Assembly: GCA_013416395.1 (NCBI GenBank)
Contig: JACCEP010000008.1
Coordinates: 62,001-126,000 of the forward strand
Direction of reading: 5' to 3'
Length of the DNA stretch: 64,000 nt
DNA from: Alcaligenaceae bacterium
Lineage (GTDB): Bacteria > Pseudomonadota > Gammaproteobacteria > Burkholderiales > Burkholderiaceae_B
The position numbers and the translations under genes were made by a program. The notes beneath the pieces are model-generated. The model was not told where the DNA came from, ran no database searches, and saw only the letters and a list, made by a program, of their open reading frames with translations. Below are positions 9,963 to 20,109 of the stretch, in pieces; positions within the stretch are counted from its first letter, which is position 1, and every line of letters begins with the position of its first letter.

Positions 9963-10049
9963 ACGACATTTTGGTCTAAGGGAAACCCCCAATGTTGTAA
10001 TAATGCTACGGGCAGGTGTAAAACCAGTATTGGCTGGGCCGGTGCAGGG

Positions 10050-10079
10050 GAGCTGTCAGGTTTGTAGGCCCGACAGCTC
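10050..10079. repeat. Inverted repeat near the end of the trp/HIT operon
   Basis: GAGCTGTC (10050-10057) pairs with GACAGCTC (10072-10079), with extra inner GG/CC pairing. It lies just past the HIT stop, but on that strand no U-run follows, so it is only a weak terminator candidate. Confidence 0.4.
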
Positions 10080-10100
10080 TTTCATGCCTGGGTTTGGCCG

Positions 10101-10577
10101 CTAAGCCCCGTGCGACGGTGATTGCCTGGCGCTGGTTTCCAGACGGGCTGCCAGCACCGCGTGGTAGCGCGGTAGCTGTTCGACAATGTCGACCAGTTGC
10201 TCTTCCCACGCGTCATTTTGTGCCTGAGTGCGCTCGGGCGCCCGCGCCCAGATGGCTTCCGGAAAATGGCTGTCAAAGCGCCAACGCGGTATGACATGCC
10301 AGTGCAGGTGCGGCACCATATTGCCGAACTGGGCCAAGTTAATTTTGCTGGGTCGCAGCACATCGCGCTGGGCCTGTTCAACCTGCCACACCACCTCCAT
10401 GATGGCCGCCCGGTCGCTGGGGCTGAGCTGCGTCATTTCGGCCACATGCTGCTTCCATATAACCCGTGTAAAGCCTGGGTAGCGGCGGTCATCAACATGG
10501 ATGACCCGCAGGCTTTCGTTTTGCCACAGCACATTTTCGTCTGTAGGCGTGCATAAGGGGCAGTTGGGATGAGTCAT
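10101..10577 (-). CDS. HIT-family nucleotide-binding hydrolase/transferase
   Basis: A 158-residue histidine-triad protein. The active-site motif HLHWHVI (His-x-His-x-His) is present near residue 92, with a supporting N-terminal block [22 protein letters not shown] typical of the bacterial branch. Such enzymes hydrolyse or transfer nucleoside phosphoramidates or dinucleoside polyphosphates; the substrate here is unknown. The start overlaps the trpC stop by four bases (ATGA), making it the last gene of the trp transcription unit even though it has no known step in tryptophan synthesis. Confidence 0.92.
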
Positions 10578-11365
10578 GTAAAAAACAACTCTTGCAGGGC
10601 AATTCCGGGTTCTGGCGCGCGCATAAAGGCTTCGCCCACCAGAAACGCCTGCACACCGTTGTCGCGCATGAGCTTGACGTCATCAACAGCGAGAATGCCG
10701 CTCTCGGTAATAATGCGTTTATCTTCTGGGATATCTGGCAGCAGGCTGAGTGTGGTTTGCAGCGAGGTTTCAAACGTGCGCAGATTACGGTTATTGATGC
10801 CGAGCAGCGACGTTTTAAGTTGCAAGGCGATTTCGAGCTCTGCCCGGTCATGGACCTCAACCAGAACGTCCATGCCCAGCTCGGTTGCTATGATTTCAAA
10901 CTCTTTAAGCTGGGAGGGAGACAGAGCCGCGACGATAAGCAGAATGCAGTCAGCGCCGATAGCGCGGCCATGGATGATTTGATACGGGTCAATGATGAAG
11001 TCTTTGCGCAGTACGGGCAGGGTGCAGGCAGCGCGCGCTTGACGCAGATAGTCGTAGGAGCCTTGAAAATACTGTACATCGGTCAGTACTGACAGGCAGG
11101 CCGCACCATGTGCGGCATACGATGAGGCGATTTCGGCGGGGTTGAAGCTTTCGCGGATAATGCCTTTGGACGGGGAAGCCTTTTTGATCTCGGCGATAAC
11201 GCCAGGCTTGCCCTGAGCTATTTTTTCTTCAATGGCACGGGCAAAGCCGCGCAGGTCTTTACGGCTTTTTGCTTCGCGCAGAACCTCGGATTCGCTGCGC
11301 ATTTGCCGTGCCGTTGTTACCTCGGCCCTTTTGGTGGCGAGGATCTTGGCAAGAATATCATTCAT
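10574..11365 (-). CDS. trpC: Indole-3-glycerol-phosphate synthase
   Basis: Ring closure and decarboxylation of carboxyphenylaminodeoxyribulose phosphate to indole-3-glycerol phosphate. The 263 residues carry the N-terminal [13 protein letters not shown] helix, catalytic [10 protein letters not shown] (Lys), the LRKDFI strand and [11 protein letters not shown] of the phosphate-binding barrel end. It is a single-function protein, not fused to TrpF. Overlaps of four bases with trpD upstream and with the HIT gene downstream indicate tight coupling. Confidence 0.96.
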
Positions 11366-12393
11366 GCTGAGAGCGTCCTTGTAAGGGTACTGAACTCGTC
11401 CAGCTTGGCCCTGGCCGCGCCGTTTTCAATGGCTTCAAATGCCAGTTTGATGCCGTTGGCAATCGAGTCAGATTTATTGCCTGCATAAATGGCCAGGCCA
11501 GCGTTATAAGCTACGATATCACGGGCAGGCCCCACAACGTTGCCAAGTGCTTCGAGCACCATGGCGGCAGATTCCTGACGGTTACTTACCTTGATGCTGC
11601 GATTGGACACCATGGCCATGCCAAAGTCTTCAGGGTGAATTTCATACTCTCGTACTTTGCCGTCGCGCAGCTCGCCTACCAGCGTGGCCGCGCCCAGTGA
11701 CCCTTCGTCCATGCCATCTTTGCCGTGCACAATCAGCACGTGCTTTGATCCCAGACGCTCGAGTACGCGCACCTGAATACCGACCAGATCGGCATGAAAC
11801 ACGCCCATTAGCTGGTTGGCGGCGCTGGCCGGGTTGGTAAGCGGCCCGAGAATATTGAAGAGAGTGCGCACACCCAGCTCTTTGCGCACAGCTGCCACGT
11901 TTTTCATGGCGCCATGATGGGCTGGCGCAAACATAAAGCCTATACCGCAAAGCGCTATGCACTCTTTGACCTTTTCAGGCGAGAGCGTAATGTGTACGCC
12001 CAGTTCTTCGAGTACATCTGCGCTGCCTGAAGACGATGAGGCGCTGCGCCCGCCATGCTTGGCGATCTTGACCCCCTGTGCAGCGGCCACAAACATGGCG
12101 GCGGTTGAAATGTTGAACGTGCTGGAGCCGTCACCCCCGGTGCCGCACATATCAAGCAGCTCGTCGGGGTTGTCAGTGTGCACCGGCAAGGCAAACTCAC
12201 GCATGACCTCGGCGGCGGCGGCAATTTCGCCGACGGTTTCTTTTTTGACACGCAAGCCCATCAGTAGAGCGCTTGCGATTTGCGGGGTCATCTCACCGCG
12301 CATGAGCATGCGCATGAGGTGCAGCATTTCGTCGTGAAATATTTCGCGATGCTCGATACAGCGGGCCAGTGCTTCGGATGGCGTAATAGTCAT
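11362..12393 (-). CDS. trpD: Anthranilate phosphoribosyltransferase
   Basis: Transfers phosphoribose from PRPP to anthranilate. The 343-residue sequence shows the PRPP-binding [14 protein letters not shown] and the [15 protein letters not shown] loop, plus the glycine-rich C-terminal half. It is an independent protein, separate from the TrpG amidotransferase, as usual in Betaproteobacteria. The stop overlaps the trpC start by four bases; 18 bases separate it from trpG. Confidence 0.96.
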
Positions 12394-12411
12394 GGTTGTC
12401 CTTTGCGTGTG

Positions 12412-12975
12412 TCAGATATCGAGAAAGTTTTGCAGTAATGCGTGACCGTGTTCGCTGAGCACAGATTCGGGATGAAATTGCACACCATATACGGGCAGGG
12501 TTTTGTGTCGCACCCCCATGATCTCGCCGTCGTCCGTTTCGGCGGTGATCTCGAGGCACTCGGGCAGGGTATTGCGATCAATAGCCAGCGAGTGGTAGCG
12601 CGTTACGGTAAAGGGCGAGGGCAGACCCTTGAAAACATCGGTGCCGCGATGGGTAATGCTGGACACCTTGCCGTGCATAATTTGTTGGGCACGCACGATG
12701 TCGCCGCCGTACGCCGCGCCTATGGCCTGATGGCCCAGGCAAACGCCCAGAATAGGCAGTTTGCCCGCAAAGTGGCGAATAAGCGCTATGGATATGCCCG
12801 CTTCAGCGGGTGAACAAGGGCCTGGCGATATGCAAATGCGCGTGGGTGCCAGTGCTGCGATTTCTTCGACCGTAGTCTGGTCGTTGCGCAGCACCTTCAC
12901 CTCTTCGCCCAGCTCGCCAAAATACTGCACCAGGTTGTAGGTAAACGAATCGTAGTTATCAAGCATCAATAGCAT
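12412..12975 (-). CDS. trpG: Anthranilate synthase component II (glutamine amidotransferase)
   Basis: Supplies ammonia from glutamine to TrpE. The 187 residues contain the class I amidotransferase triad: nucleophile Cys in [10 protein letters not shown], and the His-Glu pair in FHPES. The oxyanion strand [12 protein letters not shown] is present too. The N-terminus [19 protein letters not shown] is canonical for this family. A paralogue with the same fold (PabA) cannot be fully excluded by sequence, but the position directly after trpE decides the call. Confidence 0.95.
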
Positions 12976-13005
12976 GCTGTTTCTCCTGGGTTGATGCTTT
13001 GTTGT

Positions 13006-14526
13006 TTAAATGGGTTCATCGAGGCCGTACTGCACTTGTTCTGCGGCGCGCAACACGGCGCGCGCTTTGGCTTCGGTTTCTTGCCATTCTTTTTCGGGGT
13101 CAGAGTCTGCCACGATGCCCGCAGCTGCCTGCACATACAGCATGCCATCCTTGACGATGCCGGTGCGTATGGCAATGGCCACGTCCATTTCGCCACCGTA
13201 GCTGATGTAGCCGGCAGCGCCGCCGTAAATGCCACGACGCACAGGCTCAAGCTCGTCGATAATTTCCATGGCGCGTACTTTGGGGGCGCCAGTAAGCGTG
13301 CCGGCGGGGAAGGCGGCGCGCAATACGTCCATATTGCTCATGCTTTCATCGAGCTCGCCTGCCACATTGGACACCAGATGCATGACGTGTGAATAGCGCT
13401 CAATGCTCATGGTGTCAGTGACCTTGACCGTCCCCGTTTTGGCTACCCGGCCAACGTCGTTGCGTGCCAGGTCAATGAGCATGACGTGTTCGGCACGCTC
13501 TTTGGGATCAGCAAGCAGCTCTTCGGCGAGCGATGCGTCTTCTTCTGGCGTGGATCCGCGCCTGCGGGTGCCTGCAAGTGGCCTGATGGTCGCGATGGTT
13601 TTGCGGCCACCGGCGTCGTGCACGATTTCCTGGCGCACCAGGATTTCAGGCGATGAGCCCACAACCTGGAAGTTGTCGAAGTTCCAGTAGTACATGTATG
13701 GCGACGGGTTGAGCGAACGCAACGCACGGTAAAGCGAGATGGGTGAATCACGAAAGGGTTTGGTAATGACCTGCCCGATCTGCACCTGCATGACGTCGCC
13801 GGCCGTGATGTAGTCTTTGGCCTTGAGCACAGCGTCGATGTAGTCTTTTTTGGCAAAATCGCGACGGATGGTGGTTTGCATGCTGGCGTAGGCATACGGG
13901 ATGACCACAGGCATGCGCAGTTTTTCGCGCAACTCTTTAAGCCGGCGGCGGGCCTGGGCAAAGGCCTCGGGCTGCGTGGGGTCAGCGTAGACCATAAGAT
14001 AGGTACGCCCGGCCAGGTTGTCGACGATAACCAGTTCATCGACCTGCAGCATCATGATGTCGGGGGTGCCTTCGTCTTGCCCCGCAGGGAAAGGTTTTTT
14101 GGCTGGCCCGAGGCGGGGTTCGATATTGCGTACGGCGTCGTAGCCAAAATAGCCTGCCAGCCCGCCTGCAAAGCGTGGCATACCAGGCAGCAGCGCCACC
14201 TTGAAGCGTTGCTGAAATGCTTCGATAAAGGCCAGCGGATCGCCTTCGTGGCGTTCGACCACCTCACCCTTGGTGACGACTTCGGTGGTTTGGCCGCTGG
14301 CGCGAATGATGGTTTTGGCGGGAAGCCCAATAAACGAGTAGCGACCAAAACGTTCGCCGCCCACGACAGACTCCAGAAGGCAGCTATTGCGGCCGCCTTC
14401 GGGGCCGCTGTGCGCCAGCTTGAGATAAATGGCCAGAGGCGTATCAAGATCGGCGTAGGTTTCCGCGATGAGCGGAATACGGTTGTAGCCTTCGGCGGCC
14501 AGGGCGTTGAACTCGAGTTCTGTCAT
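13006..14526 (-). CDS. trpE: Anthranilate synthase component I
   Basis: Converts chorismate and ammonia to anthranilate, the first committed step to tryptophan. The 506 residues include the tryptophan feedback site LLES (residues 50-53) and a complete chorismate-binding domain with IRPLAGTRRRG, DLARNDVGRV and PAGTLTGAPKVRAMEI. The frame extends seven codons upstream to an ATG at 14547. The ATG at 14526 is chosen because it has a GAG six bases upstream and matches the usual MTELEF start. The gene is preceded by a leader-peptide attenuator. Confidence 0.95.
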   Translation of the reverse strand: MTELEFNALAAEGYNRIPLIAETYADLDTPLAIYLKLAHSGPEGGRNSCLLESVVGGERFGRYSFIGLPAKTIIRASGQTTEVVTKGEVVERHEGDPLAFIEAFQQRFKVALLPGMPRFAGGLAGYFGYDAVRNIEPRLGPAKKPFPAGQDEGTPDIMMLQVDELVIVDNLAGRTYLMVYADPTQPEAFAQARRRLKELREKLRMPVVIPYAYASMQTTIRRDFAKKDYIDAVLKAKDYITAGDVMQVQIGQVITKPFRDSPISLYRALRSLNPSPYMYYWNFDNFQVVGSSPEILVRQEIVHDAGGRKTIATIRPLAGTRRRGSTPEEDASLAEELLADPKERAEHVMLIDLARNDVGRVAKTGTVKVTDTMSIERYSHVMHLVSNVAGELDESMSNMDVLRAAFPAGTLTGAPKVRAMEIIDELEPVRRGIYGGAAGYISYGGEMDVAIAIRTGIVKDGMLYVQAAAGIVADSDPEKEWQETEAKARAVLRAAEQVQYGLDEPI

Positions 14527-14565
14527 AGGGGTCTCTGTGGTTTGCATACAGACCGGGACAGAATC

Positions 14566-14601
14566 AAAAAAAGCCCGGCCAAATTATTGGGTTCCGGGCT
14601 T
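14566..14601 (-). terminator. trp attenuator hairpin upstream of trpE
   Basis: On the minus strand AAGCCCGG pairs with CCGGGCTT (plus coordinates 14594-14601 with 14571-14578), with an inner CCAA/TTGG stem, followed by a run of seven T. It is a textbook intrinsic terminator placed 20-40 bases before the trpE start and about 70 bases after the leader-peptide stop. Two upstream segments offer alternative pairing: 14652-14659 (CCGGCGCT) can pair with the terminator's 5' arm, and 14614-14626 can pair with the Trp-codon region. Confidence 0.88.
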
Positions 14602-14672
14602 GATTTTGCTGGTAACACTGGCGGCGCATGGATCAGGTAAGTACGAGACCTAGCGCCGGGAAGAGATTACCG

Positions 14673-14744
14673 CTACCCAGAACACAAACGCCACCAGCGC
14701 CAGGAGGCGCGGGGCGTGTTGCGATAATAATGGGTAGCGTTCAT
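14673..14744 (-). CDS. trpL: trp operon leader peptide (23 aa)
   Basis: An ATG at 14744 opens a 24-codon frame starting MNATHYYRN and containing Trp at codons 15, 17 and 18 (W-R-W-W), followed by CGT and a TAG stop. Three Trp codons in four positions is the hallmark of ribosome-mediated trp attenuation. Its ATG overlaps the gph stop as ATGA, and there is no evident Shine-Dalgarno site, so translation may be coupled to gph. CTGGTGGCG, spanning the Trp codons (14689-14697), is complementary to CGCCGCCAG (14618-14626), giving a 1:2-type hairpin. Confidence 0.85.
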   Translation of the reverse strand: MNATHYYRNTPRASWRWWRLCSG

Positions 14745-15433
14745 ATTCTTGTAGAGTGTGTAGTGTGGCGAGCAGCCCACTTGGCTGCATCAGCAATAGT
14801 CGAAACTATATCATCGACCTGAAGATTGCGCACGTCCATGCCTTCATTGTAACCGTATGGCACAGCCAAGACGGTGATGCCGGCAGCGCGCGCAGCCAGC
14901 GCATCATTGACTGAATCACCGATGGCCAAAGCCTGTTGCGGCTTTGTGCCCAACTGTTCGCAGGCATACAGCATGGGCATGGGGTCTGGCTTTTTCTCGG
15001 CGCACGTGTCGCCGCATACCACGGCAGAAAACAGTGAGGCGATGCCAAAACGCGCGAGCAAGGGGTGGGTAAATTCAGTTGGCTTGTTGGTAACAATGGC
15101 CAATTTGCAGCCTGCCGCCGCAAAGGCTTCAAGGCCCTCTAGGACACCCGGGTACATGCGGGTACCGTCGCCATTGATGCGTAGGTAATGCGTGCCCATT
15201 ATCGCCAGGCCCTGCTCTATCATGGCCTCGTCGGGTGACTTGCCTTCGGGGTTGTTGGCAAGTGTTTTTTGCACGAGCACCTTCATGCCCTTGCCCACAT
15301 AAGTAGCCAGCAGAGCCTGATCCAGGGGCACCATGCCCAGGTCTTGTCGCATGGCGTTGGCAGCTGCGGCCAGATCAGGAATGGTATCGAGCAGGGTTCC
15401 GTCAAGATCCAGCAGTATGGCATTGAAAGACAT
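14741..15433 (-). CDS. gph: Phosphoglycolate phosphatase
   Basis: Dephosphorylates 2-phosphoglycolate, a by-product of DNA-end repair and photorespiration-like chemistry. The 230-residue HAD-superfamily protein shows motif I DLDGTLLDT, a helical cap, VTNKP (motif II), the KPDP lysine block and motif IV GDSVNDALAA. It lies directly downstream of rpe, a conserved pairing in proteobacteria. The stop codon overlaps the trp leader-peptide start, which physically joins this operon to trpEGDC. Confidence 0.94.
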   Translation of the reverse strand: MSFNAILLDLDGTLLDTIPDLAAAANAMRQDLGMVPLDQALLATYVGKGMKVLVQKTLANNPEGKSPDEAMIEQGLAIMGTHYLRINGDGTRMYPGVLEGLEAFAAAGCKLAIVTNKPTEFTHPLLARFGIASLFSAVVCGDTCAEKKPDPMPMLYACEQLGTKPQQALAIGDSVNDALAARAAGITVLAVPYGYNEGMDVRNLQVDDIVSTIADAAKWAARHTTHSTRI

Positions 15434-15460
15434 GGTGGTATTCCGTGGGAAGTACAGGCG

Positions 15461-16162
15461 TCAGACTGAGATGGATTCGCCCTTGATGATTTCGACGCGC
15501 ATGGCGTCAATGACGGCTTTGTAGTCTGGATGCCCAAAAATGGCGGAGCCGGCTACGAAGGTATCGGCACCGGCGGCGCGAATGGCCGCGATATTGTCAA
15601 CCTTGATGCCCCCGTCTACTTCGAGCGCGATAGGGTGGCCACCCGCCGCCACCCAGGCATCAATTTTGGCGCGTGCCTGTCTGACCTTGGCAATGGTGCT
15701 CGGAATGAATTTTTGCCCACCAAAGCCGGGGTTGACGGACATGAGCAGCACGACATCGACTTTTTCCATGACGAAGTTCAACCAGTCGAGCGGGGTGGCC
15801 GGGTTGAAAACCAGGCCGGCCAGACAGCCGTGTTCTTTGATGAGCGACAGGGTGCGATCGACGTGTCGTGTCGCCTCAGGGTGAAACGTGATGATATCGG
15901 CGCCCGCCTCGGCAAATTGCGGGATAATGGCATCAACCGGCTCAACCATCAGATGCACGTCTATGGGCGCTTTGGTGTGGGGGCGCAAAGCCTCGCATAC
16001 CATTGGGCCCATCGTCAGGTTGGGTACATAGTGATTATCCATTACGTCAAAATGGATCCAGTCAGCGCCAGCGTCGACGACGTTTTTAACTTCTTCGCCC
16101 AAGCGGGCGAAGTCAGCGGCCAGAAGGCTGGGGGCGATACGGGTGGGCTTGGAAAATGGCAT
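15461..16162 (-). CDS. rpe: Ribulose-phosphate 3-epimerase
   Basis: Interconverts ribulose-5-phosphate and xylulose-5-phosphate in the pentose phosphate pathway. The 233-residue TIM barrel carries [16 protein letters not shown], the metal/active-site [26 protein letters not shown] and the catalytic-loop LEVDGGI. It starts the minus-strand block rpe-gph-trpL-trpE and is divergent from apaG with a 111-bp spacer. The pathway also feeds PRPP and erythrose-4-phosphate, precursors for tryptophan. Confidence 0.96.
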
Positions 16163-16273
16163 GATCGTAATTGTGCAGAGTGCAAAAGCAGAACAGGGAT
16201 TGTGTCATTATTGCAGGTTATCGCCCGTTCGCCTGTTAAAACATGGCTTAATCCATTCATCCGGAACCCGCGA

Positions 16274-16648
16274 ATGAAACCATACGATATTTCGGTTACC
16301 GTTACACCACAGTACTTGCCAGACCAATCCAGGCCTGACGAGCAGCAGTTTGTTTTCGCCTATACGGTGCGCATTACCAATCGCGGCCAGCATGCCGCCC
16401 AGGTGATCAGCCGTCATTGGTTCATTACCGATGGCTTGCAACAAACCCAAGAGGTTCGCGGCTTGGGGGTAGTGGGTCAGCAGCCGTTGCTGGCGCCTGG
16501 TGAAACATTTGAATACACCAGCGGCTGTCCACTTCCAACCCCTGTGGGTACGATGCGAGGTACCTATCATTGTGTGGGTGAAAACGGCGTGCCGTTCGAG
16601 GTGCCTATTGACGAGTTCATGCTGGCCATGCCGCGCACACTGCATTAA
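16274..16648 (+). CDS. apaG: ApaG family protein
   Basis: A 124-residue beta-sandwich protein of the ApaG/FBXO3-C family, historically linked to Co2+/Mg2+ resistance; its molecular function is unclear. The characteristic blocks FAYTVRITN, VISRHWFITD, VRGLGVVGQQPLLAPGETFEYTSG and GTMRGTY are all present. The open frame begins at 15530, but everything before 16274 is antisense to rpe. The ATG at 16274 gives the standard family length. Often found near apaH or ksgA elsewhere; here it precedes mltA. Confidence 0.95.
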   Translation: MKPYDISVTVTPQYLPDQSRPDEQQFVFAYTVRITNRGQHAAQVISRHWFITDGLQQTQEVRGLGVVGQQPLLAPGETFEYTSGCPLPTPVGTMRGTYHCVGENGVPFEVPIDEFMLAMPRTLH

Positions 16649-16746
16649 TACCCATCGTATTCTGTCGCCTGTCATGGCTGCATGGTTTTTGCGGCCAGGT
16701 CGCACAAAGCCAGGCTATGTATTAACCCCTGTCATTACGCGAACGT

Positions 16747-18027
16747 ATGAAAAAAATCCTGTTTTCGGCAACGCTTCTGGGTCTGCTTTCCGCCTGCAGC
16801 TCTGTGCTGGTCTCTCCTGAGGTGCAGGCGCCAGGTCAGGTGGCCGACATTGCTGCATTGCCATTGACCGTGCCAGCACTTGAAGCCATTCCTGAAACAC
16901 CAGCCCGCCCTCTGCAAGGCACGTTTCAGCAGGTGTCCTGGACGGCGCTGCCTGGGTGGCAGGACGACAGCCTTGATCATGTCTGGAAGGCGTTCATCAA
17001 CAACTGCAAGGGGCTGATGCGGCCGGTGTCAGGGTCTTTGGCTCAGCAGGCGCGCGCCACACCTCGGGTGTGGCAGCCTGTGTGCGCCGCCGCCGTTCAG
17101 TCGGGTCTCGATCCTGAAAACGCCAACACCGTAGCCGTGCGGCAGTTTCTCGAACAACAGCTTCAGCCCTGGCGCCTGCTCGATGCCGCAGGCAAACCTG
17201 CACGCAACACCGTAACAGGCTATTACGAGCCTTTGGTGTACGCATCGCGCAAGCGCGAGGGCACCTACCAGTGGCCTTTGTATGCCGTGCCCGCTGACTT
17301 GCTAACCATAGACCTGGGTTCGGTTTATCCCGAGCTGGCGGGCAAGCGCGTACGGGGCAAGCTCGATGGTAATCGTGTTGTGCCTTATGACACGCGTGCG
17401 CAAATCGCCGCGTCGCCCGAGCGTCAGCCTGAGGTGCTGGCCTGGGTTAATGACCCCGTTGAAGCGTTTTTCTTGCAGATACAGGGCTCGGGTCGAGCCC
17501 AACTGCCCGATGGCAGCATGATGCGCTTGGCCTATGCCGATCATAATGGTCGTCCTTATGCTTCCATTGCTACATGGCTGGCCAATAAAGGCGAAATGCC
17601 GCTGGCCAAGGCATCCATGAGCAATATCAAAGCCTGGGCCCGCAGCCACCCGGAGCGTGTCCAGGAAATGCTCAATGCCAACCCTGCCATGGTGTTCTTT
17701 CGCGAAGAAGCAATTGTTGACCCTGAGCTTGGGCCCAAGGGTGCCTATGCCATCCCCCTGATCGGACAGCGCTCCGTGGCGGTTGATACAAGCTATGTAC
17801 CGCTGGGGTCGCCGCTTTATCTCGTCACCACCCATCCGGGATCAAGCCGGCCACTTCAGCGGCTGGTCATGGCCCAGGATACTGGCGCGGCCATCAAGGG
17901 CCCGGGTCGTACAGACTTTTACTGGGGCTTTGGCGATGAGGCCGGGGCCGAGGCGGGCCGCATGAAGCAAAGCGGCGACACATGGGTGTTGTGGCCTAAA
18001 CAGGCGGGAGCACCTTCGGCACGATGA
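16747..18027 (+). CDS. mltA: Membrane-bound lytic murein transglycosylase A
   Basis: Outer-membrane lipoprotein that cleaves peptidoglycan to 1,6-anhydromuropeptides. The signal peptide ends in LLSAC (lipobox, Cys about residue 18). The MltA body (GYYEPLVYASRK) is followed by the 3D domain containing MAQDTGAAIKGPGRTDFYWG, with its catalytic aspartate, near residue 375. The 426-residue length fits the family. The stop overlaps the next start by four bases (ATGA), so it is cotranscribed with the hydroxylase. Confidence 0.95.
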   Translation: MKKILFSATLLGLLSACSSVLVSPEVQAPGQVADIAALPLTVPALEAIPETPARPLQGTFQQVSWTALPGWQDDSLDHVWKAFINNCKGLMRPVSGSLAQQARATPRVWQPVCAAAVQSGLDPENANTVAVRQFLEQQLQPWRLLDAAGKPARNTVTGYYEPLVYASRKREGTYQWPLYAVPADLLTIDLGSVYPELAGKRVRGKLDGNRVVPYDTRAQIAASPERQPEVLAWVNDPVEAFFLQIQGSGRAQLPDGSMMRLAYADHNGRPYASIATWLANKGEMPLAKASMSNIKAWARSHPERVQEMLNANPAMVFFREEAIVDPELGPKGAYAIPLIGQRSVAVDTSYVPLGSPLYLVTTHPGSSRPLQRLVMAQDTGAAIKGPGRTDFYWGFGDEAGAEAGRMKQSGDTWVLWPKQAGAPSAR

Positions 18028-19217
18028 AAAAAGAAAGACACGACAATATTGTTGTATGCGGCACAAGTCTGGCGGGTCTGGCTACTGCGCTCGGGCTGAC
18101 CAAGGCAGGTTTTAGTGTGGCACTTTTGGGGCCACGCAGCGTGCCTTCAACGCCCGCGCCTGACGTTTACCATCCACGGGTATACGCTATTTCGGCCACC
18201 AGCCAGGCTTTTCTTGCCCGTCTGGGGGGCTGGAATCTTATGGATGCCCGACGCATCACGCCGGTGCAGGCCATGGAGGTTCATGGTGACGCCAGCGGGG
18301 TCGTTAATCTTGATGCCTGGCAGGGTGCCGAAACCGCACTCGCCTGGATCGTTGAGTCTGGCGAAATGGAGCGCGCCCTGCAGCAGGCCGTGCAGTTTTT
18401 CGGGATCACCTGGCACGCTGAAAAATTCGAACGCCTCGAGAGCGGGGTGGTACATACCGACAGTGGTCGTGTGTTGCGCCCTGACCTGCTTATAGGTGCT
18501 GATGGCGGGCAGTCGCCCGTACGCAAAGCAGCGAGCATTAGCCATCACTCACGGGCCTATGGCGATACCGGCGTTGTAACGCATCTGACCACTGAGCGCC
18601 GGCACCAGAACACGGCAGTACAGTGGTTTACGGGCGATTCCGTGCTGGCCCTGCTGCCCATGCCTGATACCACCGATGGTCATCAGGTATCCATGGTCTG
18701 GTCCATGCCTGAAGCCATGGCTCATGAATTGCTGGCTTTGTCTTCCGAGGGGCGCGCCTCCTGGCTTGAGTCCAGGCTGGCTGCCGCAACCGGTGGTCGT
18801 CTGGGCGCCTTGTCAGTCCGCAGTCCGGTATTTGGTTTTCCCTTGTTCATCGAGCACAGCAGTATGGTCGCGCCAGGTGTTGCTCTGGTCAGCGATGCTG
18901 CACACAGAGTCCATCCTCTTGCAGGCCAGGGGCTTAATCTTGGTCTTGGTGATATTGAGGCGCTTGTAGACATTTTGTCTGCCAAAGAATCATTTCGTGG
19001 CGCTGGTGATATACGCGTACTGAACCGTTACCGGCGCGCACGCGCAGAACCAATTCTAGCCATGCGTTTAGCAACTGATGGTCTGCATAAGCTTTTTGCA
19101 TCTCAGGCAGCACCGGTCGTACTGGCGCGCAACGTTGGCATGCAGTGCGCTGATCGCCTGCCCTTTGTCAAACGGTTGCTCATTAACGCCGCCGCCGGGG
19201 GCAAGCCTGGCGTATGA
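18024..19217 (+). CDS. UbiH/UbiF/Coq6-family FAD-dependent hydroxylase
   Basis: A 397-residue FAD monooxygenase of the ubiquinone-hydroxylase group, which hydroxylates the quinone ring using O2 and reducing power. GADGGQSPVR (the DG motif) and SDAAHRVHPLAGQGLNLGLGD (FAD ribityl site) are clear. The N-terminal dinucleotide loop reads VVCGTSLAGLATALGL rather than the common GGGxxG, so the first glycines are partly replaced. Which ring position it hydroxylates cannot be told. It is coupled to mltA and followed by dsbC. Confidence 0.88.
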   Translation: MKKERHDNIVVCGTSLAGLATALGLTKAGFSVALLGPRSVPSTPAPDVYHPRVYAISATSQAFLARLGGWNLMDARRITPVQAMEVHGDASGVVNLDAWQGAETALAWIVESGEMERALQQAVQFFGITWHAEKFERLESGVVHTDSGRVLRPDLLIGADGGQSPVRKAASISHHSRAYGDTGVVTHLTTERRHQNTAVQWFTGDSVLALLPMPDTTDGHQVSMVWSMPEAMAHELLALSSEGRASWLESRLAAATGGRLGALSVRSPVFGFPLFIEHSSMVAPGVALVSDAAHRVHPLAGQGLNLGLGDIEALVDILSAKESFRGAGDIRVLNRYRRARAEPILAMRLATDGLHKLFASQAAPVVLARNVGMQCADRLPFVKRLLINAAAGGKPGV

Positions 19218-19254
19218 TGATTGACGAAATTTAAGCATTGCAACAGGAGCACAT

Positions 19255-20109
19255 ATGCGTTTGCGTTTAGCGGGCTGGCTGGCTACAGCAGCACTGGTCA
19301 GTCTGCCGGTTTACGGTGTACATGCGTGGGCACAACAGGCCACAACGACCGAATCAACCGAAAAAGTCACGATCGAACAGCCCGAGCAGGGCGTCAAACC
19401 TCAACCGCAGCAAGATGCAGTCGGTGTGTCTGCGTCAACGGCGGGCAATAGTGGCAGTGCAGCAGCAGCCACCACGGCGGCTGTTCAGAAAGCATTTGAA
19501 AAGCGCTTTCCCGAAATTGATGTCGGCGGGGTGGCACCAACGCCATTTGCGGGCCTATACGAGGTTCAGGTTGGCTCAGACTTGCTGTACGTTAATGCTG
19601 ATGTCGATTACATATTGCAGGGGTCGCTCATTGACGCCAAGCGTCGCACTGACCTGACGGCCGAACGTATAGATGCGCTGTCGCGGGTTGATTTTGCCGA
19701 CCTGCCGCTCGATATCGCCATCAAGCAGGTCAAGGGTGACGGCTCACGTGTCATGGCTATTTTTGAAGACCCTAACTGCGGTTACTGCAAGCAGTTGCAC
19801 AAAACGCTGAATGACGTTGATAACGTTACGATCTATAGTTTTTTATTCCCCATTTTGTCACCTGATTCGACCACAAAGGCCCGAAATATCTGGTGTGCAA
19901 AAGATAAAACAGAGGTCTGGCGCGACTGGATGCTGCGTGGCAAAAAGCCGGCAGAGGCTGAGTGCGAGACACCGATCGAGCAGTCGCTGGCGTTGGGCAG
20001 AAAGCTCAATGTTCAGGGCACGCCGGCTATTTTCTTTGCCGATGGCAGCCGCATCAACGGAGCCTTGCCTCTAAACGCACTGAAGCAAAAACTCGACACG
20101 CTGAAATAG
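19255..20109 (+). CDS. dsbC: Thiol:disulfide interchange protein DsbC
   Basis: Periplasmic disulfide isomerase that repairs wrongly paired cysteines. A Sec signal peptide (about residues 1-25, ending VHAWA) is followed by an unusually long linker of about 50 residues rich in Thr, Gln, Ala and Ser. Then come the dimerisation domain (KRFPEIDVGGVAPTPFAGLYEVQ) and the thioredoxin domain with CGYC near residue 175 and the cis-proline loop GTPAIFF. A second, structural Cys pair is visible. AGGAG precedes the ATG. The linker makes the protein longer (284) than E. coli DsbC. Confidence 0.95.
   Translation: MRLRLAGWLATAALVSLPVYGVHAWAQQATTTESTEKVTIEQPEQGVKPQPQQDAVGVSASTAGNSGSAAAATTAAVQKAFEKRFPEIDVGGVAPTPFAGLYEVQVGSDLLYVNADVDYILQGSLIDAKRRTDLTAERIDALSRVDFADLPLDIAIKQVKGDGSRVMAIFEDPNCGYCKQLHKTLNDVDNVTIYSFLFPILSPDSTTKARNIWCAKDKTEVWRDWMLRGKKPAEAECETPIEQSLALGRKLNVQGTPAIFFADGSRINGALPLNALKQKLDTLK

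Follow-up and report, generated by a model that had tools for sequence, protein, structure and literature searches.

The window analysed here is a stretch of 64,000 nucleotides from an Alcaligenaceae bacterium (assembly GCA_013416395.1, contig JACCEP010000008.1), and the locus of interest lies on its minus strand. There, a phosphoglycolate phosphatase-like gene (14741–15433), for which we kept the name gph from a preliminary description of the sequence, is followed by a short leader ORF and trpE (13006–14526), and the genes 3' of trpE read like trpG, trpD and trpC when named by eye. The leader (14673–14744), delimited by ORF reading and its homologues, encodes 23 amino acids (MNATHYYRNTPRASWRWWRLCSG), ends at a TAG stop codon (14675–14673), and contains the Trp control codons UGG CGC UGG UGG (14691–14702), whose alignment columns are often invariant or nearly so. 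As that description had reported, this minus-strand frame carries W-R-W-W, its ATG at 14744 overlaps the gph TGA (14743–14741) as ATGA, and a terminator with seven T lies ahead of trpE (stem, 14600–14573; T tract, 14572–14566); each of its positions that we compared with the sequence proved correct. ORF and homologue comparison identified the ATG at 14526 (ATGACAGA) as the trpE start kept in the family (among 40 starts listed), as opposed to the ATG of the longest ORF, at 14547. A 36-base core pattern of the leader region, searched with up to three mismatches, occurred once in the window and in 0 of 100 shuffles. An Rfam search (E up to 10) gave no match in the leader region, the one result with a bearing on TRAP, T-box or riboswitch control of trp, and two weak matches elsewhere in 10000–20000. 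A plasmid search gave no match.

The leader was also said to lack a clear ribosome site, and family-wide anti-Shine-Dalgarno (SD) energies agreed: the mean 5' of the leader start was −0.61 kcal/mol (143 genomes, including the window), no better than that of shuffled upstream sequence (−0.85), whereas trpE starts reached −3.13 (n = 121). The sequence thus supports reading the locus as a putative ribosome-mediated trp attenuator, whose leader carries Trp codons, lacks an SD and is followed by a terminator.

TrpE was matched in 194 of 200 genomes of the window's family, and 150 among the matches listed, including the window, were analysed; the closest relative among them (G102) shared 99% TrpE identity. 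A Trp-rich leader built on W-R-W-W or a close variant of it was scored 5' of trpE in 143 of the 150 genomes, one further leader was recognised by eye (G196), and no clear leader was found in the remaining six (G001, G004, G076, G099, G111, and G181). A gph homologue was located 5' of trpE in 141 of the 150. In a named genome collection, the core pattern matched 43 contigs, titled Achromobacter, Bordetella, Pusillimonas, Pollutimonas, Parapusillimonas, Paralcaligenes, Candidimonas, Allopusillimonas or 'Alcaligenaceae bacterium', all of which we take to be Alcaligenaceae. A trpE-like start followed within 260 nt downstream of the core in 42 of these contigs, and the locus on the 43rd ends 57 nt past the match. 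Both the Trp codons and the stems were conserved in an alignment of relatives, a comparison that the preliminary description had proposed. At one locus (L005, genome G024), a GGGGTCAGACCCC-type repeat lies between gph and the leader, whose ATG is found 118 nt past the gph stop.

Helices were compared in an alignment of one genome each for 34 of 36 genera (g12 and g43 were omitted as poorly alignable), in which the helix columns were picked by hand. The intrinsic terminator, AGCCCGG..CCGGGCU plus seven U (14566–14600), was paired in 95.8% of cells across the 34 representatives, with weak covariation, and appeared in the minimum free energy (MFE) structure of 127 of 143 genomes when its 3' arm was present. 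A terminator scan did not list it; the sole hit in 14450–15500 was a stem of the Trp codons (14701–14687), at chance level. Covariation and folding point to a predicted antiterminator between segment 2, GUUCUGGG (14676–14683), in the last leader codons just before the stop, and segment 3, CCCGGAAC (14591–14598), which also serves as the terminator 5' arm; by sequence and folding, the antiterminator and terminator are mutually exclusive. Between the leader stop and the terminator, covariation and MFE folding placed a central hairpin (14611–14672).

This arrangement settled an ambiguity in the preliminary description, in which CCGGCGCT (14659–14652) was offered either the terminator arm or GCGCCG (14627–14622) as its partner. 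Both elements lie at these positions, and the pairing with GCGCCG stands as part of the central hairpin (CCGGCGC:GCGCCG), while that with the terminator arm does not. We rejected CCGGCGCT as an antiterminator arm, since it is part of the hairpin and, by eye, is carried only by the window's row among the 34. Also confirmed was the complementarity between CTGGTGGCG (14697–14689) and CGCCGCCAG (14626–14618). With regard to this pairing, the Trp-codon segment scored −15.4 with the region before the terminator versus −13.1 with shuffled sequence; covariation cannot test it because the Trp side hardly varies, and the window MFE structure does not use it.

Across 36 genera, the antiterminator formed 248.8 of 288 cells with its own partner versus 238.1 in between-genus shuffles, which do not fully remove shared ancestry, and a fraction of 0.003 of the shuffles was as good. 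In the 34-genus alignment, its seven-pair core was paired in 94.8% of cells, with two pairs changed on both sides (GCGCCGGG/CCCGGCGC is a compensated example from one genus), and its outermost pair formed in 73.5%. The central hairpin showed changes on both sides in 9 of 12 pairs, and its two helices were paired in 67.5% and 75.4% of cells. The whole structure, antiterminator and central hairpin together, beat the shuffles on most measures: 0, 1, 0, 34 and 1 of 500 were as high on the five used, with 0 of 500 reaching the paired percentage and 1 of 500 the covariation score. Slid controls were likewise beaten except on pair types, for which one slid version had 27 versus 25.

A further helix would shield segment 2. 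Segment 1, approximately the first leader codons AACGCUACCC (14732–14741), pairs with the last part of segment 2 and with the stop region in the ribosome-free MFE structure, so that the GGG of segment 2 has partners in both segment 1 and segment 3. The first 22 leader nucleotides paired the stop region at −14.3 kcal/mol per genus versus −12.3 for shuffled sequence, and 0 of 180 between-genus shuffles were as good as the own-partner energy; in one genus, AUGAAAAUCCC pairs with GGGAUUUUCA. Ribosome-free folds contained this 1:2 helix in the MFE structure of 81 of 143 genomes and the antiterminator in 48. The protector is clear in the window (9 pairs) and not universal in the family. When folding was confined to the RNA downstream of a ribosome placed on the first Trp codon, with the terminator 3' arm unmade, the antiterminator was present in the MFE structure of 135 of 143 genomes, at −34.0 kcal/mol in the window, where segment 2 would lie partly under a ribosome on the third Trp codon. 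The blocking of the antiterminator by a ribosome at the leader stop is a consequence of the masking used.

Past the U tract, segment 5, CCCGGUC (14551–14557), is complementary to the terminator 3' arm GGCCGGG. This pairing reached −8 kcal/mol or lower in 141 of 143 genomes, with a per-genus mean of −14.6 kcal/mol, compared with −13.3 for partners taken from a different genus and −9.1 for shuffled sequence, and 0 of 180 shuffles were as good as the own-partner pairing. These values were obtained by script, as the 34-genus alignment was misregistered in this region in several rows. Three genera (g4, g15, and g36) have an extra A in the 3' arm (GGACCGGG) and a matching U in the downstream segment; because this A is read as unpaired in the terminator, the match would be independent evidence for the helix. 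The spacing of segment 5 varies, which argues against a protein-bound DNA dyad.

Upstream of the leader, conservation and comparison identified a putative extended −10 element, TGATATAGT (14805–14813), which has no recognisable −35 and sits within gph, 60 nt 5' of the leader ATG. A consensus promoter scan of the window region found nothing and recognised no −35; the tool requires a −35, which explains the empty result. Of 135 genomes examined, 127 carry the motif TGNTATART in the region that begins 160 nt ahead of the gph stop, and all 40 named genomes having enough sequence carry it within 330 nt upstream. The Ile codon inside the element was ATA in 124 of the 132 genomes scored, ATT in 6 and ATC in 2 (the 132 are those of the 141 gph-adjacent genomes to which the search motif could be fitted; nine did not match it), versus ATA at 122 of 1,190 remaining Ile codons of gph. 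Two neighbouring third positions were T at genus-weighted frequencies of 0.99 and 0.96.

The DNA upstream of trpE gave no gph hit in nine of the 150 genomes. One was truncated by a contig end (G176) and one had neither the motif nor a leader (G111); the remaining seven (G011, G050, G031, G033, G065, G044, and G196) carry a TGNTATAGT-like motif ahead of the leader, reading TGGTATATT by eye in G031. Four of the seven have a detached gph orthologue elsewhere (>54% identity), with ATC as the Ile codon in G196, G011 and G050 and Val at that position in G031. As the motif stays without an adjacent gph and three detached gph genes use ATC, the motif follows trp rather than gph. Five more divergent genomes with trpE beside gph had ATA in two cases and TAT, GTC or ATT in the others, and one gph-adjacent genome (G025) had ATT and no motif; with ATA missing from 8 of the 132 scored genomes and 3 of these 5 divergent ones, the promoter position is not universal. 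Overall, the pattern suggests that the attenuator has its own promoter within the 3' end of gph, which may be held there by an uncommon codon.

Such a promoter bears on the interpretation offered in the preliminary description, in which ribosomes that terminate at gph would restart on the overlapping ATG. No other ribosomes might then translate the leader, and Trp sensing would depend on transcription and translation of rpe-gph. The ATGA overlap is present in the window, a start at this position is constant among sampled members of g1 (5/5), g20 (4/4) and g29 (9/9), and no SD signal precedes the leader, all of which would fit this proposal. However, an in-frame start at −4 of the gph stop was found in just 31 of 136 gph-adjacent genomes (ATG in 30, GTG in 1), distributed over 12 genera, and the overlap was thus not conserved in the other 105. 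A four-base SD motif occurred in 2 of 23 leaders with the overlap and 7 of 120 without it (here the start was set at the in-frame ATG lying furthest upstream within 108 nt; this sometimes precedes the −4 ATG, hence 23 overlaps). Since the SD is lacking with and without the overlap, its absence is a family trait and no sign of coupling. The leader also persists where gph is not directly upstream, and the −10 element is conserved inside gph. In the window, moreover, the gph frame contains no ATG, GTG or TTG between the putative transcript start (predicted near 14799–14796) and the gph stop, and ribosomes on the short transcript cannot therefore be finishing gph. Exclusive translation by such ribosomes was accordingly left unsupported by the conserved −10, the leaders without adjacent gph and the rarity of the overlap, and it appears improbable; the evidence for the internal promoter likewise left the tie to rpe-gph unsupported as the main mechanism.

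A supply from two sources is a less demanding alternative, with the internal promoter giving most of the leader RNA and minor, gph-primed read-through from rpe-gph giving a basal Trp response. This would fit both the overlap and the gene order rpe-gph-trpE (rpe and gph are upstream of trpE in many relatives), and the terminator scan gave no hit in the gph-leader interval, yet the same scan missed the trp terminator. We found no evidence that read-through matters, and the overlap comes and goes inside genera (3/5 in g28, 1/9 in g26); we regard this arrangement as possible, though less likely than not. Coupling on a longer rpe-gph read-through mRNA is possible, and on the present evidence it would be at most a side route. 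As for the conserved stretch itself, its constraint might come from a protein read in a different frame (...LALVAFVFWVAVI...; window 14650–14790, minus strand) instead of an attenuator. This frame is open and hydrophobic over the Trp codons in many genera, but an upstream in-frame ATG exists in only 14 of 143 genomes, and much of the conservation is explained by the helices. We rejected this explanation as extremely unlikely.

We therefore consider it very probable that the locus attenuates trp transcription by a ribosome-mediated mechanism and that most of its RNA starts at an extended −10 promoter of its own, within the gph 3' end. The leader, the terminator, the alternative helices and the conservation of the −10 element were read from sequence and comparison, and from them we infer the ribosome positions, termination efficiency, promoter activity and role of the post-terminator helix in the following model. 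With charged tRNA-Trp, the leading ribosome would pass UGG-CGC-UGG-UGG, reach UAG and cover GUUCUGGG; CCCGGAAC would then pair as the terminator, and RNA polymerase would halt before trpE. Under a shortage of Trp-tRNA, the ribosome would stall on the first UGG and GUUCUGGG would stay available for pairing with CCCGGAAC around the central hairpin; with the antiterminator formed no terminator would arise, allowing transcription of trpE and the following genes. If no ribosome is present, the first leader codons would pair the GGGUAGC stop region as the 1:2 helix and thereby disable the antiterminator. The 4:5 helix, between the terminator 3' arm and the segment beyond the U tract, could form only after read-through, at which point CCCGG(U/C)C pairing the 3' arm may secure the antiterminated form. 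More tentatively, the Alcaligenaceae trp attenuator might act as a five-segment switch, with read-through made irreversible by 4:5 and start-stop pairing limiting sensing to the first ribosome, a reading that we regard as possible rather than probable.

Among the matches listed in a search of published work, we found no account of this attenuator in Alcaligenaceae, which is not proof of its absence from print. Vitreschak et al. (2004) reportedly treat proteobacterial attenuators and may already list some of these. The trp attenuator of E. coli switches among mutually exclusive 1:2, 2:3 and 3:4 helices, counterparts of which are proposed here. The locus resembles E. coli trpL-trpE in having a short ORF with adjacent Trp codons and an intrinsic terminator before trpE. 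Set against the E. coli arrangement as it is generally known, several features differ: the final leader codons here contain the 5' arm of the antiterminator, segment 1 falls on the codons that open the leader, segments 2 and 3 have a hairpin between them, the leader has no SD, and the putative promoter is inside the upstream gene. The post-terminator partner is conserved here, whereas the best E. coli partner, tested in a similar way, paired imperfectly at −8.5 kcal/mol.

In Sinorhizobium meliloti, trpL/rnTrpL is an attenuator 5' of trpE with a Trp-containing leader peptide, similar in these respects to the present locus, and rnTrpL starts at the leader ATG and is described as a possible leaderless mRNA (PMC7298713); in contrast, a 5' UTR of roughly 50 nt is predicted here. 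Classical trp attenuators have also been predicted in Corynebacterium and Streptomyces, with double or triple UGG codons, a GC-rich terminator and alternative helices found by comparison (PMC1262725), as in the present case. These genera belong to another phylum.

The switch is thus likely of an ordinary kind, well conserved in the family, with its likely working parts now assigned. It provides a concrete family-wide model of Trp control in Alcaligenaceae (Achromobacter, Pusillimonas, Bordetella and relatives), and should the conserved post-terminator partner prove functional, the textbook cycle of attenuation would gain a further step. The likely promoter would be kept within a coding gene by an uncommon codon, and the motif is also seen in other families of the order. 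Of 67 loci examined at the order level, 16 carry the TGNTATAGT motif close to the end of gph, and these come from 12 other families (L156, L157, L158, L159, L162, L179, L182, L193, L195, L196, L199, L206, L208, L210, L211, and L214). A loose scan returned Trp-rich frames 5' of trpE in other families as well, some surely by chance, and some of the order-level motif loci, and others, have Trp-rich frames before trpE that encode different peptides.
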